Below, piece after piece: positions 24,890 to 50,439 of a DNA stretch of 64,000 bases (the first letter of the stretch is position 1; every line of letters begins with the position of its first letter). The notes below the pieces were generated by a model. The model ran no database searches. It was given only the letters and a program-made list of their open reading frames with translations, and was not told the DNA's origin. This DNA comes from Caldicellulosiruptor bescii DSM 6725 (GTDB taxonomy: Bacteria > Bacillota > Thermoanaerobacteria > Caldicellulosiruptorales > Caldicellulosiruptoraceae). The DNA lies in assembly GCF_000022325.1 (NCBI RefSeq), contig NC_012034.1, positions 2,710,001-2,774,000 of the forward strand, given 5' to 3'. A program made the position numbers and the translations under genes.

Positions 24890-24979
24890 TATACCAGTAA
24901 AGACCAAAAAGAAATGGAATAATAAAGGCAGGATATACAGAACAAAGTTAAATCATCTGTTAGAGCAAGCAAACATAAA

Positions 24980-25025
24980 GGGTAACCACTCCTAAGATAG
25001 TGGAGTAGTTACCCTAATTTTTTAC
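24980..25025 (+). terminator. Intrinsic terminator after the Uma2 gene
   Basis: GGGTAAC-C-ACTCC pairs with GGAGT-A-GTTACCC around a nine-base loop, followed by TAATTTTTT. Confidence 0.85.
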
Positions 25026-25105
25026 AGTTTCTCGGGTAGCTGTAGGGTAGCTGTAGAAAATGAGTTTGTAATATTATTCCACACATCAAACCCCTTAAAA
25101 ACAAA

Positions 25106-25182
<77 letters not shown>

Positions 25183-25189
25183 ATTTAAA

Positions 25190-25265
<76 letters not shown>

Positions 25266-25293
25266 ACCTGTTATACTTTTTTATTAAATTAAA

Positions 25294-25369
25294 TGGAGCT
25301 GGCGATGGGACTCGAACCCGCAACCTGCCGATTACAAGTCGGCTGCTCTACCGATTGAGCTACGCCAGC
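25294..25369 (-). tRNA. tRNA-Thr (anticodon TGT)
   Basis: A 76-nt cloverleaf: acceptor GCTGGCG/CGCCAGC, anticodon stem GCCGA/TCGGC with loop CTTGTAA, encoded CCA. The T stem reads GCGGG/CCCAT, which contains one C-A mismatch and one G-T pair. Confidence 0.93.
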
Positions 25370-25386
25370 ACCATTTTTAATCTTAG

Positions 25387-25471
25387 TGGTGGAGGGGGTT
25401 GGATTCGAACCAACGAAGCCTGCGGCAACAGATTTACAGTCTGCCCCCTTTGACCACTTGGGTACCCCTCC
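25387..25471 (-). tRNA. tRNA-Tyr (anticodon GTA)
   Basis: An 85-nt tRNA with long variable arm: acceptor GGAGGGG/CCCCTCC, anticodon loop CTGTAAA, T loop TTCGAAT, discriminator A and encoded CCA. Confidence 0.95.
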
Positions 25472-25558
25472 ATGTTTAACTTCCAGACAACTTCAAATCC
25501 GACGCTTCTGTATTTTAGCACACACTGCTCTTCTTTGTCAATACCTATTTTCTTCTCA

Positions 25559-25635
25559 TGGTCGGGGTGAGAGGACTTGAACCTCCGGCCCCATGGTCCC
25601 AAACCACGTGCTCTACCAAGCTGAGCTACACCCCG
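25559..25635 (-). tRNA. tRNA-Pro (anticodon TGG)
   Basis: A 77-nt cloverleaf: acceptor CGGGGTG/CACCCCG, anticodon loop TTTGGGA, T arm GGAGG-TTCAAGT-CCTCT, encoded CCA. It is the first gene of the cluster. Confidence 0.95.
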
Positions 25636-34418: not shown

Positions 34419-35159
34419 ATGCTTGAAATCTTTGACCTTCACGTTGAGGTTGGTTCAAAAGAGATTTTAAAAGGCGTTTCTCTCACAATCCCGGACGGAG
34501 AGACGCACATTCTGTTTGGTCCGAACGGAAGTGGAAAGACAACACTCATGATGAGCATAATGGGTCTTCCCAAATACAAAATCACATCAGGGAAGATAAT
34601 CTTCAATGGCATCGACATCACATACATGCCAACTCATGAAAGAGCAAAGCTTGGAATTGGAATGATGTTCCAAAAACCACCAGCTATAAGAGGCGTTGAG
34701 CTTCAAAAACTTTCTGAGATAATAAAGTCTATAAGAAACACCGATGCTGACATTCAAGAGTATGCAAGAATTTTAAATTTAGAGGAGCACCTATCAAGGG
34801 AAGTAAACTATGGATTTTCTGGTGGTGAGATGAAAAGGTCTGAACTTCTGCAGCTTTTGTGTCAAAAACCAAGCCTTGTGCTCTTAGATGAGCCAGAGTC
34901 AGGTGTTGACCTTGACAATATAAACCTTTTGGGAAATGTAATTAAAAAGCTTTTGAAAGGTGAAAAGATAAAAAAACGTCACACCTCCGGCTTGATTGTC
35001 ACACACACAGGGTATATTTTGGAGTATGTCAATGCAGACAAAGGGCACATTCTGATGGATGGAAAGATAGTGTGCTCAGGTTCTGCAGAAGACCTCTTTG
35101 AAGAGATAAGACAAAACGGGTTTGGGAGGTGTGAAAATTGTCTTCAAGACACTATATAG
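34419..35159 (+). CDS. sufC: SufC ABC-type ATPase for Fe-S cluster assembly
   Basis: A 246-residue ATPase with Walker A GPNGSGKTT, signature region YGFSGGEMKRSELLQL, Walker B LVLLDEPESGVD (the SufC-type ESGVD) and HTGYIL near the end. It drives conformational change in its SufB-type partner. ATG 34419 follows AAGGAG. It overlaps the next gene by 22 bp. Confidence 0.92.
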   Translation: MLEIFDLHVEVGSKEILKGVSLTIPDGETHILFGPNGSGKTTLMMSIMGLPKYKITSGKIIFNGIDITYMPTHERAKLGIGMMFQKPPAIRGVELQKLSEIIKSIRNTDADIQEYARILNLEEHLSREVNYGFSGGEMKRSELLQLLCQKPSLVLLDEPESGVDLDNINLLGNVIKKLLKGEKIKKRHTSGLIVTHTGYILEYVNADKGHILMDGKIVCSGSAEDLFEEIRQNGFGRCENCLQDTI

Positions 35160-36388
35160 ATCAAAAGATTTTGGAGCTTGCAAAGTCAGCTTTAAATAAA
35201 AAGGCAGCTTATGGGCAAGATGTTGACCTTTCCCAGTTTGAAGAAGCAGAGGAAAAAGACCAGATTTCAGAGCTCTCTAAACTTCCAGAAGAGATTCAAA
35301 AGACAATACTAAATGCAGGAATAGAGGTATCTGAAGAAGGCCGGTCGGGAAGTTTTTTGCAGCTTGACCACTCTGTTGTATACAGACGGCTTCAGCAAAG
35401 GTACCATGGCCAGCTTGAGATTTTGGACATAAATGAAGCTTTGGAAAAGTATCCAGAGGTTCGCGAAAAGTATTTCTGGAAAGCGGTAAAGCCTGACAGG
35501 GATAAATACACTGCATTTTCGGCAACACACCCTGCCCACGGGTATTTTATAAGAGTGTTCAAAGGGCAGAAGGTTGAAAAGCCAATACAGGCGTGCCTGC
35601 TTTTGCAGGAAAATGCAAGGATACAAAACGTGCACAATATTGTTATCTTAGAAGAAGGTGCAGAGGTCCAGATTATAAACGGATGCGCAACAGCACCAAA
35701 GGTAAAGGAAGGGCTGCACATTGGAATTTCTGAGTTTTACCTTGAAAAGGGAAGCAGGCTCACATTTACAATGGTTCACAATTGGGCAGAAGATTTTTAT
35801 GTCAGACCCCGTGGAGTGACCATTGTTGAAGATGATGCTGTGTTTGTTTCAAACTACGTGCTTTTAAAACCTGTGAAGTCCATACAGTCGTTTCCCATTG
35901 CAATCTTGAAAGGAAAAAACTCGGTTGCATCCTTTAACTCGCTCTTGTATGGGCTAAAAGACTCTGAGATTGACATGGGATCGCATATAATACTGGAAGG
36001 TGAAAATTCAAGTGGCCAAGCAATTTCAAGGGCTATTGTAAAAGACAGGGCAAAGATATACTCGCGTGGAATTCTGGAGGCGCGGCAGAACCACTCAAAA
36101 GCGCACCTTGACTGCCGAGGAATACTTTTATCAAGCAACGGAATGATGTATGCTGTGCCAGAACTATTATCAGACGGTGCGCCACAGAGCCACCTTTCAC
36201 ATGAGGCAGCAATAGGTCCCATTGCCGAAGAAGAAGTAGAATACCTGATGAGCAGAGGACTTTCAAAAGATGAGGCAATATCTCTTATAACCCAAGGGTT
36301 TATGGATGTAAAAATACTTGGGCTTCCCAAACATCTTGAAAATTATATACAGGAGCTTATTTTGCAGACCCAGGAGGAGAATATGTAA
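35138..36388 (+). CDS. sufB: SufB/SufD-family Fe-S scaffold protein
   Basis: A 416-residue member with a helical N-terminus and the beta-helix core (FYVRPRGVTIVEDDAVFVSNYVLL, GLKDSEIDMGSHIILEG) and the C-terminal SHEAAIGPIAEEEVEYLMSRGLSKDEA that binds SufC. It is the only SufB/D paralogue here, and no SufS, SufU or SufT follows. TTG 35138, 8 bases after GGGAGGTG, is the best start and lies within sufC. Such a two-gene unit resembles the minimal SufCB (SMS) systems of anaerobes and archaea. Confidence 0.88.
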   Translation: MSSRHYIDQKILELAKSALNKKAAYGQDVDLSQFEEAEEKDQISELSKLPEEIQKTILNAGIEVSEEGRSGSFLQLDHSVVYRRLQQRYHGQLEILDINEALEKYPEVREKYFWKAVKPDRDKYTAFSATHPAHGYFIRVFKGQKVEKPIQACLLLQENARIQNVHNIVILEEGAEVQIINGCATAPKVKEGLHIGISEFYLEKGSRLTFTMVHNWAEDFYVRPRGVTIVEDDAVFVSNYVLLKPVKSIQSFPIAILKGKNSVASFNSLLYGLKDSEIDMGSHIILEGENSSGQAISRAIVKDRAKIYSRGILEARQNHSKAHLDCRGILLSSNGMMYAVPELLSDGAPQSHLSHEAAIGPIAEEEVEYLMSRGLSKDEAISLITQGFMDVKILGLPKHLENYIQELILQTQEENM

Positions 36389-36394
36389 AAATAA

Positions 36395-36484
36395 GGCAAG
36401 GTGGCAAAGCCTGAACTACTATCCGTTTATTTGGATAGTTAAGGCTTCTTTTGAGCTAAAGTCCTAAGAGTTTGCTGCCTTGCC
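36395..36484 (+). other. Compact three-way-junction RNA element of unknown function
   Basis: A 14-bp closing helix (36395-36408 with 36471-36484) encloses two hairpins: one with ACTATCC/GGATAGT (36418-36424 with 36433-36439) supported by GCCT/AGGC, and one CTTTT/AAGAG (36448-36452 with 36466-36470). The closing helix uses two G-U pairs that form only in the plus-strand RNA, so the structure is likely plus-strand specific. It could be a 3' UTR element of the suf transcript, an elaborate terminator, or a small RNA; I know no matching family. Confidence 0.5.
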
Positions 36485-36496
36485 CATTTTATATTT

Positions 36497-37684
36497 TTAT
36501 TCGTACCTTAGCGCCTCAATAGGATTTAAGCGTGCTGCTTTCTCTGCCGGAAGCATTCCAAAAATAACTCCTACCAAAACCGAAATTCCAAAAGCCAGAA
36601 AAGCCCACTTTAGCGAATATACAGGCTCAACCCCAGGAATCCTCGAAATCCCCACGGCAATTACAAAAAACCCAAGCAATATACCAATTATACCACCAAC
36701 ACCTGTTATAACCATCGACTCTATGAGAAACTGTACTCTAATATCCTTTCTCTTTGCTCCAATTGCTTTTCGAATCCCAATCTCTCTTGTTCTTTCTGTG
36801 ACAGACACAAGCATAATATTCATAATTCCAATGCCACCAACTACAAGAGAGATTGTAGCAATGCCACCAAGTATTATCATCAGAAGATATGTTATTTGAT
36901 TTAGAGTTGACATAAGTTCAGACATATCATAAACTGTATAGTTTTCTTCTTTTTTTACGATACTGCTCAAATATGCTTTTATTCTCTTTTTAACCTCATT
37001 GTTCTTATCAGCAGAAACTGTACGTACCAAAAAATTTTTCACAAGCGCATAGTCGTCTGTCGAGAGGCTATCTAAGGCAAATAAGGGCACTATGATACTG
37101 TCGTCAACCGTGTTGTCCCTTCCGCCCTGTTTTTCTTTCAAAACTCCAACCACCTTGAAAACCTGACCATTTACGTTTATCTCTTGCCCCACTGGATTTT
37201 GGCTATTAAATAGCTTTTTCTGTATCCTCGAACCTATCACTGACACTTTTTGCCTAAAATCACTGTCTACAGGACTTATAAACCTTCCTTTTGAAAGTGC
37301 AAGGTTTTGTATCATCATGTACTCGGCTGTTGCACCAATAATCTGGCACTCCTCTTTTTTACCTCTGAAAATTGCCTGAGCAGGATATTGGACAAATGGG
37401 CTCACACCCAGGATAACATCGTTATTTTTCCTTGCAAACTCTAAAAATTGATCAACCGAAATATCTTCGCTCTTTGAAACTGGATTTATAAAAACATACA
37501 CAAGGTTTGTACCAAGCTTTTCTATCTCTTTTGTAATACCAGCTGTGGTGCCCTCAGCAAGCCCCACAGCTGCAACCACTGCTCCGACACCTATGACAAC
37601 ACCAAGAAGTGTTAGAAATGACCTTAGCCTGTTGAGAAAAATACTCTGGATTGCCATCTTGCAAGAAAGCAAAAACTTCTCCAT
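36497..37684 (-). CDS. MacB-type FtsX-family permease without its own ATPase
   Basis: A 395-residue permease with N-terminal helix (MAIQSIFLNRLRSFLTLLGVVIGVGAVV), a periplasmic-type core and the C-terminal block ISLVVGGIGIMNIMLVSVTERTREIGIRKAIGA, ending LNPIEALRYE. It is paralogous to the permease at 16613. ATG 37684 is preceded by AAGGGGAAG; the longer frame overlaps the adaptor gene. No ATPase gene accompanies it, so it may borrow the one at 15895 or another. Confidence 0.87.
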   Translation of the reverse strand: MEKFLLSCKMAIQSIFLNRLRSFLTLLGVVIGVGAVVAAVGLAEGTTAGITKEIEKLGTNLVYVFINPVSKSEDISVDQFLEFARKNNDVILGVSPFVQYPAQAIFRGKKEECQIIGATAEYMMIQNLALSKGRFISPVDSDFRQKVSVIGSRIQKKLFNSQNPVGQEINVNGQVFKVVGVLKEKQGGRDNTVDDSIIVPLFALDSLSTDDYALVKNFLVRTVSADKNNEVKKRIKAYLSSIVKKEENYTVYDMSELMSTLNQITYLLMIILGGIATISLVVGGIGIMNIMLVSVTERTREIGIRKAIGAKRKDIRVQFLIESMVITGVGGIIGILLGFFVIAVGISRIPGVEPVYSLKWAFLAFGISVLVGVIFGMLPAEKAARLNPIEALRYE

Positions 37685-37703
37685 CGCACAACATCTTCCC
37701 CTT

Positions 37704-39353
37704 TTAGTAGAAAAGACTTTGACCCTGTTTTTCAGTATCAAACTTTGGAAGCACCACTTCTTCGCCCTCGATGAGCCCTTCCAAGATTTCAACATATTTA
37801 TCTGTTGTCATGCCAAGTTTGACTGCCCTTTTTTCTGCATCTTTATAGTAAGAGCTGTCAAGTCCGTATTCGTCTGTTTTCTGGCTGGTTTTTTGTTCTT
37901 TGTTTTTCTCAGAAGTTTTAGCCTTTTGTTGTGGGTAAACATACACATAATATTTTCCATCATCTTTGTGAACTGCTTCAACTGGTACAACCAGCGCATT
38001 TTCCTTGGACTTTAAGATAATCTCTGCTTCTGCGTGCATCCCAATCTTTATATTACTGTTATTTTCAAATTCTATCTTAACAACAAACTTTGAGACGCTA
38101 CCATTGCTATCCGATTGTGCCTTTTCAGAAATCTCTGCAACATACCCTTCTAAAGGCCTATTTCTTGTACTTCCTACCGCATCAAGCTTTATGTTAACCT
38201 TCTGCCCAGGCTTTATCTTCAAAATGTCAAGTTCTTCCACCTGAGCACTTATAACAAGGTGTTTCGGGTCATACACTGAACATATCATCTGCCCAACAGT
38301 CACCACATCACCATCCTGGAGATTCAAATCAGCTATTTTGCCGTCAATTGGAGCTAAAACCTCATAGTTTTTCAAATCATCTTCGGCTGCTTTTATTTGG
38401 GATTTTATATCCTCTATCTTTAAATCAAGCTGCTTTATTTGCATCTCAACCTCGTCGGTTGAAAACTTCAAAAGCAAGCTACCTGTTTTTACCTTCTGCC
38501 CATTTTCAACAAAAACCTTTTCTACTCTGCCAGAAACAGGGCTTACAATGATCTTTTTTGAAAATACCTCTAAAATACCTTCGCTAAGAGATGTCACTTT
38601 TTCACCGTTTGAAAGCTTTAAACTTACACTTGCCCTCATACCCTCTGTCAAGCTACCGTTTTTGTTTGAAACTACCACCTTTGCATCAAACACCATCACA
38701 CCATCCTGATTTTTGTATATCCTGCTTCCCAAGCCTTCAACAACACCGTCGACCCTGTCCATAAGATCAGATACCACAACCTCTGCCTTCTGTCCTCTTT
38801 TTACCTTTCCATAACACCAGGCAGGAAGCTGCACGCTCAGCTTCATCTTTGAGTCATCAACAATGGTCATTACCTGCATTTCTTGACTGACAAACATACC
38901 TTCACTTGTTGTAAGATTTTGCACAAAACCGTCCTGGGGAGATTTTAAAGTAAAGTTTTGAAGCTGTCTTTGAAAATTTTCTCTTTGAAGTTCAAGATCT
39001 AAAAGCTGTCTTTTCAAAGCCTCTATCTTAAAAACTGCCTGGCTGTCATCTATCTTAGCGATTAAATCTCCTTTTTTGACATACTGCCCGTTTTTGACAA
39101 AAATTTTTTCTATAGCTCCATTTACCTTCGAGATGACATTTCTTGTGTTGCTGCTTTGCACAATGCCAGACACCAAAAGTGTTTGCTTTAAAGAAATCTT
39201 TTGTACCTTTGCAGTCCTTGGCTTAGATGAAGCATTCTTTTTGCTCCCAGATGGCATAGTTAAAACAAGTGTTAAAATAAATCCCACTAATATAAGTAAC
39301 ACAATAATTACAGCTTTTTGCCAGTTTTTTAGACCTTTTGCAGTGTTTTGCAT
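37704..39353 (-). CDS. Duplicated-module HlyD/MacA-type adaptor protein
   Basis: A 549-residue adaptor, much longer than the usual 350-420. After a membrane anchor it carries two consecutive adaptor units: the first has ISKVNGAIEKIFVKNGQYVKKGDLIAKID and LKSPQDGFVQNLTT, the second has VSPVSGRVEKVFVENGQKVKTGSLLLKF and VLAPIDGKIADLNLQDGD. Only a short first coiled coil is present. ATG 39353 lies about 11 bases after AAGGAG. It lies between a Yip1-domain gene and the permease gene with 19 bp to the latter. Confidence 0.82.
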   Translation of the reverse strand: MQNTAKGLKNWQKAVIIVLLILVGFILTLVLTMPSGSKKNASSKPRTAKVQKISLKQTLLVSGIVQSSNTRNVISKVNGAIEKIFVKNGQYVKKGDLIAKIDDSQAVFKIEALKRQLLDLELQRENFQRQLQNFTLKSPQDGFVQNLTTSEGMFVSQEMQVMTIVDDSKMKLSVQLPAWCYGKVKRGQKAEVVVSDLMDRVDGVVEGLGSRIYKNQDGVMVFDAKVVVSNKNGSLTEGMRASVSLKLSNGEKVTSLSEGILEVFSKKIIVSPVSGRVEKVFVENGQKVKTGSLLLKFSTDEVEMQIKQLDLKIEDIKSQIKAAEDDLKNYEVLAPIDGKIADLNLQDGDVVTVGQMICSVYDPKHLVISAQVEELDILKIKPGQKVNIKLDAVGSTRNRPLEGYVAEISEKAQSDSNGSVSKFVVKIEFENNSNIKIGMHAEAEIILKSKENALVVPVEAVHKDDGKYYVYVYPQQKAKTSEKNKEQKTSQKTDEYGLDSSYYKDAEKRAVKLGMTTDKYVEILEGLIEGEEVVLPKFDTEKQGQSLFY

Positions 39354-39372
39354 GTGAGAATACTCTCCTTTT

Positions 39373-40035
39373 TTATCTGCCACCAAACTTCATAAAGTTT
39401 TGCGTAAACATTGAAACAATGGGCATTATGAGTGTGACTGCACTATAGACAATACTTACAATAATACTTTTTGCTTTGTTAAGTTCACAGGCAGCAAACA
39501 CTCCAACGCCAATCAATACATACCGCCAGATAGCAAACACATGCAGGTATGTTCTTATAAAATACTTAAAATCCATTTGAATGTCCAAAATGTTCAAATT
39601 TACGACCCTGGCATATATCACATAGAAGATGTAATATGGAATCATCACAAGATTTGCAACTGCTACAATTGTAAGTGCTCTTTTGTAATCAATCTCACCA
39701 CCTGCAAGCCTTACAATTATGAGCAAGACAAAGGAAGCAATAAAAAATGAAATAATGGTATGTAAAAATGTTGTTCCTGCTAAATAAATAGGTGATTTTG
39801 TAAATTTTAGGTTTTTTAAAGTAGCTTCTTGTACTTGCGGATCTTCAGTGAATCTTTTTACATACTCTAACATAGCTTCATCTGAGATTTTAGGCAAAAA
39901 AAACGTAGTAAGTGCTGCTACTATCGGTATAAAAAATATTAAAATCACAAAGTCTGGCTTTTCTTTGACTTTCTGAAATACTTTTGTTGGTGAAATAACA
40001 AGATTCAGAAGATTTGATGGCTTCAAGTATTCCAT
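39373..40035 (-). CDS. Yip1-domain membrane protein
   Basis: A 220-residue protein with five hydrophobic segments and the Yip1/DUF1282-type pattern SPTKVFQKVKEKPDFVILIFFIPIVAAL at the N-terminus. It starts with an ATG after AAGGAGGAG and heads the operon Yip1-adaptor-permease. In Firmicutes Yip1 proteins are commonly encoded next to MacAB-like exporters, with unknown role. Confidence 0.75.
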   Translation of the reverse strand: MEYLKPSNLLNLVISPTKVFQKVKEKPDFVILIFFIPIVAALTTFFLPKISDEAMLEYVKRFTEDPQVQEATLKNLKFTKSPIYLAGTTFLHTIISFFIASFVLLIIVRLAGGEIDYKRALTIVAVANLVMIPYYIFYVIYARVVNLNILDIQMDFKYFIRTYLHVFAIWRYVLIGVGVFAACELNKAKSIIVSIVYSAVTLIMPIVSMFTQNFMKFGGR

Positions 40036-49782: not shown

Positions 49783-49881
49783 GTAAGTTTTGTCGGTAAC
49801 CGGCATCCGACTAATAAAATGCCGGCTCGTAAGTTTTGTCGGTAACCGGCATCCGACTAATAAAATGCCGGCTCGTAAGTT
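49783..49881 (+). ncRNA. Tandem-repeat antitoxin RNA of a type III toxin-antitoxin system
   Basis: Two identical 46-bp repeats (49783-49828 and 49829-49874) and a 7-base third start (49875-49881). Each unit contains the hairpin CCGGCAT/ATGCCGG plus single-stranded flanks (GTAAGTTTTGTCGG and CCGACTAATAAA); GTCGG and CCGAC could also pair to give a pseudoknot or alternative stem. In type III systems the toxin nuclease cuts the precursor into single repeats that bind and inhibit the toxin. Promoter upstream, terminator and toxin gene downstream are all present. Confidence 0.85.
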
Positions 49882-49884
49882 CTC

Positions 49885-49918
49885 AAAAAAGAGCCCTCAT
49901 TGTAGAGGGCTCTTATTC
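49885..49918 (+). terminator. Terminator between antitoxin RNA and toxin gene
   Basis: GAGCCCTC-ATTGTA-GAGGGCTC followed by TTATT. Leaky termination at this point sets the excess of antitoxin RNA over toxin mRNA in type III systems. Confidence 0.88.
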
Positions 49919-49947
49919 TATATATTCTAAAAAAGGGGAAATAATGC

Positions 49948-50439
49948 GTGAAACCTCAACTCCACTTTTTTTATATTATAAGCGATAAGTTTTTCGAAGA
50001 TTTTCCAGACCCATATTTGAAAGAAAATAAAGAAGAAAATAGACCAAATTACTATTGTTTTGAAAGTGAAAATGATGAAATATATTGGATGATACCAGTC
50101 AGTTCAAAAATAGAAAAATACAAAAAGATTGTTGAACATTATGAATCTCACGGTCGCAAATGTATAAAGGTATTTATTATTGAGATTGCAGGAAGAGAAA
50201 TAGCTCTTCTAATTCAAGATATGTTTCCTGTAACTGAAGAATACATAGTTCGTGAATTCACCATTAAAAATATTCCTTTAAAACTTCTCGATACTTCTCA
50301 AATAAAAGAAATTGAAAAAAGAGCTAAAAAAGCATTGGCACTACTGAGACAAGGGAAAAAGCTTTTGAAAACTCAGCCAAATGTTTTAGAGATTGAAAAA
50401 GCATTAAAACAGAAACTCCTCAACAAAGAAAGGGGCTGA
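49948..50439 (+). CDS. Type III toxin, CptN-like endoribonuclease
   Basis: A 163-residue protein whose segments FFYIISDKFFEDFPDPYLKEN, RPNYYCFE, YWMIPVSSKIEKYKKI, LLIQDMFPVTEEYI and ALALLRQGKKLLKTQP agree with what I know of the CptIN/ToxN group: a compact RNase with a ToxN-like beta barrel. It sits 30 bp after the terminator that follows the repeat RNA. GTG 49948 lies 10 bases behind AGGGG. The family call is by memory; the architecture itself is strong evidence of a type III toxin. Confidence 0.83.
   Translation: MKPQLHFFYIISDKFFEDFPDPYLKENKEENRPNYYCFESENDEIYWMIPVSSKIEKYKKIVEHYESHGRKCIKVFIIEIAGREIALLIQDMFPVTEEYIVREFTIKNIPLKLLDTSQIKEIEKRAKKALALLRQGKKLLKTQPNVLEIEKALKQKLLNKERG

Follow-up and report, generated by a model that had tools for sequence, protein, structure and literature searches.

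What is the function of a 90-nt branched stem that fills the space between two convergent operons of Caldicellulosiruptor bescii DSM 6725? The stem lies in a 64,000-nt stretch of the genome (the window, to which all coordinates refer) and occupies nearly all of the 108-nt gap (36389-36496) in which sufC-sufB, on the plus strand, converges with macA-macB-like genes, on the minus strand. It begins 6 nt past the sufB stop codon. The suf unit (34419-36388) contains sufC (34419-35159, plus strand), encoding the Fe-S assembly ATPase (TIGR01978, 212.6 bits; cut-off 212.8), and, just upstream of the element, a scaffold gene (35138-36388, plus strand) that scored 221.8 bits for SmsB and 194.5 bits for sufB. 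Both values are below the model cut-offs, and we call the scaffold SufB/SmsB-like, a name that accommodates either assignment. As judged from the families of these two genes, the unit is apparently a minimal system made of SufC and one such scaffold. On the minus strand, the convergent gene encodes a MacB-like ABC permease (36497-37795; stop codon at 36497-36499) whose start may be over-extended, and a MacA-like or RND-type adaptor subunit (37704-39386; TIGR01730, 214.1 bits with a cut-off of 94.9) is encoded upstream in the same unit. Among the papers listed by a literature search, none appears to treat this locus.

The whole element spans 36395-36484 on the plus strand, as delimited by its coordinates, its folding and its homologues in the genus. 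The closing helix, P1, consists of 14 pairs between a 5′ arm at 36395-36408 (GGCAAGGTGGCAAA) and a 3′ arm at 36471-36484 (TTTGCTGCCTTGCC); the eighth pair is U-G and the ninth G-U, and both become A-C mismatches on the opposite strand. These limits, the helix and its two wobble pairs had been given exactly by the first-pass annotation, which also placed two hairpins inside P1. That description holds for P2 (36418-36439), a strong hairpin of 8 bp (36418-36425 with 36432-36439) and a 6-nt loop, but less well for P3 (36440-36466), which forms 8 bp in the congeners G005 and G011 and is weak in C. bescii, where it carries an A-C mismatch. The C. bescii element is a closing helix around one good and one weak hairpin, and inside P1 its minimum-energy pairing departs from the clean three-way junction seen in those two congeners.

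The minimum free energy of the 90 nt was −38.7 kcal/mol on the plus strand (z −5.25, reached by 0 of 200 shuffles) and −30.2 kcal/mol on the minus strand (z −4.0). When GC-corrected folding energies were compared among 90-nt segments sampled across the 64 kb in steps of 10 on both strands, the element ranked first of 12,782 on the plus strand, a rank slightly boosted by a grid that held its exact reported frame, and was outranked by 75 segments on the minus strand. The fold of the 90-nt element is real. It was not listed by an inverted-repeat search, because its arms contain wobbles. The second-strongest fold of the window, at 24975-25064 on the plus strand, adjoins a cluster of tRNA genes on the opposite strand (25109-25635).

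At 75 °C, the assumed growth temperature, P1 paired on the plus strand with a probability of 0.98 in all 11 homologues, a value that in C. bescii applies to the outer seven pairs. Plus-strand energies of the homologues at this temperature ranged from −8.6 to −16.8, and those of six simple hairpins of the window from −4.8 to −7.4. Stripped of the inner hairpins, P1 reached −4.8 kcal/mol, compared with −11.2 kcal/mol for the whole element at 75 °C, and for this reason the inner hairpins probably matter.

The proximity to the sufB stop codon, the top-ranked fold and the pairing of P1 at 75 °C agree with the stable stem that an intrinsic terminator places at the 3′ end of a transcript. On the other hand, a single hairpin with a short loop is found only in G006 and G010, nine of the 11 homologues being branched, and a consensus terminator scan, which permits only loops of 3-8, did not report the element. 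Scored by a U-tract rule, the U-rich tail of the plus transcript (36485-36499, CATTTTATATTTTTA), overlapping the macB stop codon, gave 1.52, and that of the minus transcript (36380-36394, minus strand, TTATTTTTACATATT), overlapping the end of the suf gene, gave 3.61; by the same rule, eight simple hairpins of the window gave 2.5-5.2 on the strand read and 0.5-3.4 on the other strand (scored in five). The earlier remark that there is no strong T-tract is thus correct for the plus strand but not for the minus strand. Among the homologues, the plus score stayed at 1.1-3.0 in all 11, mostly because CA follows the stem, a spacer that delays the tail in seven of them, and the minus score was 3.0-3.6 in nine of 11 (full range 2.3-3.6). 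An A-rich tract upstream of the stem, as expected if a tail is to be provided for both strands, is found in most homologues (AAAAATAA / AAATAAAGA) and is partly lost in G001 and G009. Elsewhere in the window, at 49815-49965, a direct repeat of ACTTACGAGCCGGCATTTTA on the minus strand stands beside a canonical terminator.

According to the first-pass annotation, a simple terminator would not need this architecture. The argument is weakened by a survey of convergent gaps of 25-250 nt, obtained by mechanical ORF calling in 464 kb of the C. bescii genome (20 stretches plus the window), in which 22 of 23 gaps carried a hairpin domain at least as stable as −10 kcal/mol. The strongest domain was branched in six of the 23 gaps, within 120 nt in three of those six, and the element was the strongest of all domains of up to 120 nt.

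It is weakened further by the variants found in relatives. When 201 bases surrounding the element were used as a query, 20 of 61 genomes matched, in many cases just at the coding ends; within the genus (12 genomes, including C. bescii), the element is full-length (85-93 nt) in nine genomes, short (45 nt) in two and absent in one, single-copy per genome and fixed in position. The short form, in G006 and G010, keeps the outer stem of the full-length form but consists of one hairpin; these genomes lack P2 and the inner part of P1, an absence consistent with a loss between AAGG repeats, and carry an extra minus-strand reading frame between the element and macB. In G007, where the convergent neighbor differs, a canonical simple terminator stands in place of the element, and in the outgroup G012 the corresponding slot is taken by a simple hairpin followed by a ATTTTTTTAA tail. 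Simple hairpins, then, take the place of the branched stem in relatives. In G003, an insertion gave rise to a further, truncated copy of the sufB 3′ end; the first sufB copy has its own canonical terminator, and the element follows the truncated copy, where it folds at −42.4. The arrangement is seen in L040 (24-782 and 3446-3691), where the insertion measures about 2.9 kb. The element lies farther from sufB in G001, G003 and G009, with extra DNA in between; within this DNA of G001 (L044) we noticed by eye a promoter-like TTGACT-16-TATAAT after the sufB stop, unnoticed in the others.

The first-pass annotation had staked its structured RNA on compensatory changes in homologues, and these are present only weakly. 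In the automatic alignment A1, 95.5% of 267 cells pair, in comparison with 31-64% when partners are slid, and many pairs are invariant. One pair shows a two-sided change, a number reached by 181 of 500 shuffles in a sample whose power is low (nine sequences, 82% mean identity). In the author's hand alignment, U-A gives way to C-G at the third pair beyond the internal mismatch in G001, G003 and G009; bulges and deletions on one arm of P1 have counterparts on the other. Neutral evolution was simulated from three structured roots along a flank tree, with no indels, with assumed base frequencies and kappa, and with the scale matched to 82% identity; of 500 runs for each root, 0, 1 and 0 reached the observed mean plus-strand energy, and 1, 5 and 29 the observed mean minus-strand energy. 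The rarity of such runs indicates that stability has been maintained, more clearly on the plus than on the minus strand. The fold has stayed stronger than neutral drift would leave it, and the earlier proposal that the suf mRNA carries a structured, plus-leaning RNA at its 3′ end is supported by this stability and by wobbles that recur in congeners.

How far does the element favor one strand? It had been described as strand-polar; indeed, the plus strand folds clearly better in seven of the nine full-length homologues, but the two strands are equal within 1 kcal/mol in G003 and G009, and it is the minus strand that has the better U-tract. G-U pairs occur in P1 at five positions on the plus strand, whereas a wobble on the minus strand occurs at one position, in one homologue, and this 5-to-1 bias is suggestive, not decisive. 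The observed difference between plus and minus energies was reached in 157, 162 and 0 of 500 simulated runs, depending on the root, and from a polar root the difference was inherited in about a third of the runs; the simulation thus does not prove polarity. The preference of the fold for the plus (suf) strand is only a lean. The better plus-strand folding in spite of the weak plus U-tract, together with the wobble bias, would fit an element acting mainly as a plus-strand 3′ stabilizer or processing end, with the suf transcript entering macB antisense and being trimmed back to the stem, and with minus-strand termination secondary. We hold this to be possible though rather unlikely, because simple terminators substitute in the corresponding slot and because the strongly folding G003 element trails a truncated sufB copy instead of the intact gene.

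Searches for relatives outside this position gave no sign of a family. Rfam, queried with the whole window at gathering level and with 36250-36600 at E 10, returned nothing relevant; one match, at 17.2 bits against a cut-off of 50, was judged to be chance, and a likeness to the c-di-GMP-I riboswitch, seen by eye, was unsupported by the search at E 10. A DNA search of the C. bescii genome found, besides the element itself, only chance matches of 14-22 bases. The model R1, trained on the nine full-length members without the two short ones, recovered those nine and nothing else convincing in the genus (a match in G004, E 0.56, looked like chance); it found no match at E 0.01 in 25 other genomes of the class, and no element match appeared in the 26 suf loci scanned out of 80 obtained. 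No Rfam family reached the gathering score, and two-sided covariation did not exceed that of shuffles. The element does not speak for a new class of RNA.

These searches also bear on the idea of a DNA-level palindrome or mobile repeat (REP/MITE-like) whose RNA fold is incidental. The outer arms are near-palindromic, and AAAGA immediately precedes GGCAAGG in 10 of 11 homologues (C. bescii being the exception), including G001, G003 and G009, whose DNA further upstream differs. However, each genome holds one copy, no second family member emerged in the genus, and the G-U positions, which are mismatches in a palindrome, nevertheless persist; we give this idea hardly any credence.

The tight P2-P3 and P3-P1 junctions, which form a three-way junction in several congeners, and the conservation of a single copy in place could point instead to a regulatory or independent RNA acting beyond the transcript ends, either a small RNA derived from the 3′ UTR or a ligand- or temperature-responsive three-way junction. 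This is improbable given that the junction and inner helices are remodeled or deleted, being lost in G006 and G010 and replaced by other minimum-energy interiors at 37 °C in G000, G002, G004 and G008, that Rfam and covariation lend it nothing, and that the plus strand past the element offers no directly downstream gene for cis control. A junction that varies and plain hairpins that substitute for it argue against a specialized, aptamer-like RNA. Still more doubtful is that the suf message ends in a genus-specific three-way-junction RNA that terminates conditionally or regulates from the 3′ UTR, in which the inner hairpins would sense temperature or Fe-S state and so tune read-through into macAB antisense RNA.

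We consider that the convergent sufCB and macAB-like operons probably share the element as a branched intrinsic terminator that acts in both directions and leaves their transcripts with a stable 3′ end. It lies in the sole gap between two operons that both need a 3′ end, and this role is favored by what occupies the matching slot in relatives: the 45-nt hairpin in G006 and G010, and simple terminators in G007, in G012 and behind the first sufB copy of G003. The poor plus-strand U-tract counts against a terminator, which also leaves the retained branching and the plus lean unexplained. RNA polymerase leaving sufB would transcribe P2 and P3, whose local folding would draw the distant arms of P1 together; closure of P1 up to the U-rich stretch would then release the polymerase, and the stable stem left on the transcript end would resist 3′ exonucleases. 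The macB transcript would end likewise on the minus strand, with a weaker stem (two A-C mismatches) and a better U-tract. The element is best read as enlarged and branched relative to most terminators in the C. bescii genome, and as apparently interchangeable with simple hairpins; most likely, it represents an ordinary function in an unusual shape, conserved within the genus. If it terminates as proposed, intrinsic termination in a thermophile can rely on a branched RNA of 90 nt that escapes terminator finders designed around short-loop hairpins, and one locus would swap among branched, simple and canonical forms within a single genus. The variants would form a small natural series for testing the closing helix, the inner hairpins and the U-tract at high temperature.

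Three known systems resemble the element in part. Stem-loops of the REP type, which stabilize mRNA 3′ ends, are long stable stems that occur as dispersed repeats; the element is likewise a long stable stem just past a stop codon, but is single-copy between fixed genes. The terminator/antiterminator of the cobalamin riboswitch in the metE leader of the genus gave weak second-locus matches to R1 in G005, G006 and G001 (E 0.014-0.11) and combines a long helix, in which the wobble pair of P1 recurs, with the terminator tail ATTTTGTTTTT; in contrast to the element, it belongs to a 5′ leader that includes a genuine aptamer (RF00174, 124 bits; one locus tested). In L135 of G001 (1257-1478 and downstream), and also in L134 and L136, where RF00174 precedes metE, a long alternative helix (GTCAAGGTGGTAAAGAC/GTCTTTACTGCCTTGAC) resembles P1, both wobble pairs included. 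We judged the similarity to be short and these matches non-homologous, the likeness probably reflecting chance or convergence. Finally, the element differs from bidirectional Rho-independent terminators in its 90-nt branched form, in a plus tail that opens with CA and in the plus-favoring wobbles of its stem, but has in common with them that a stable stem occupies the space between convergent genes, that both strands carry U-rich tails and that relatives have simple terminators in the same slot.
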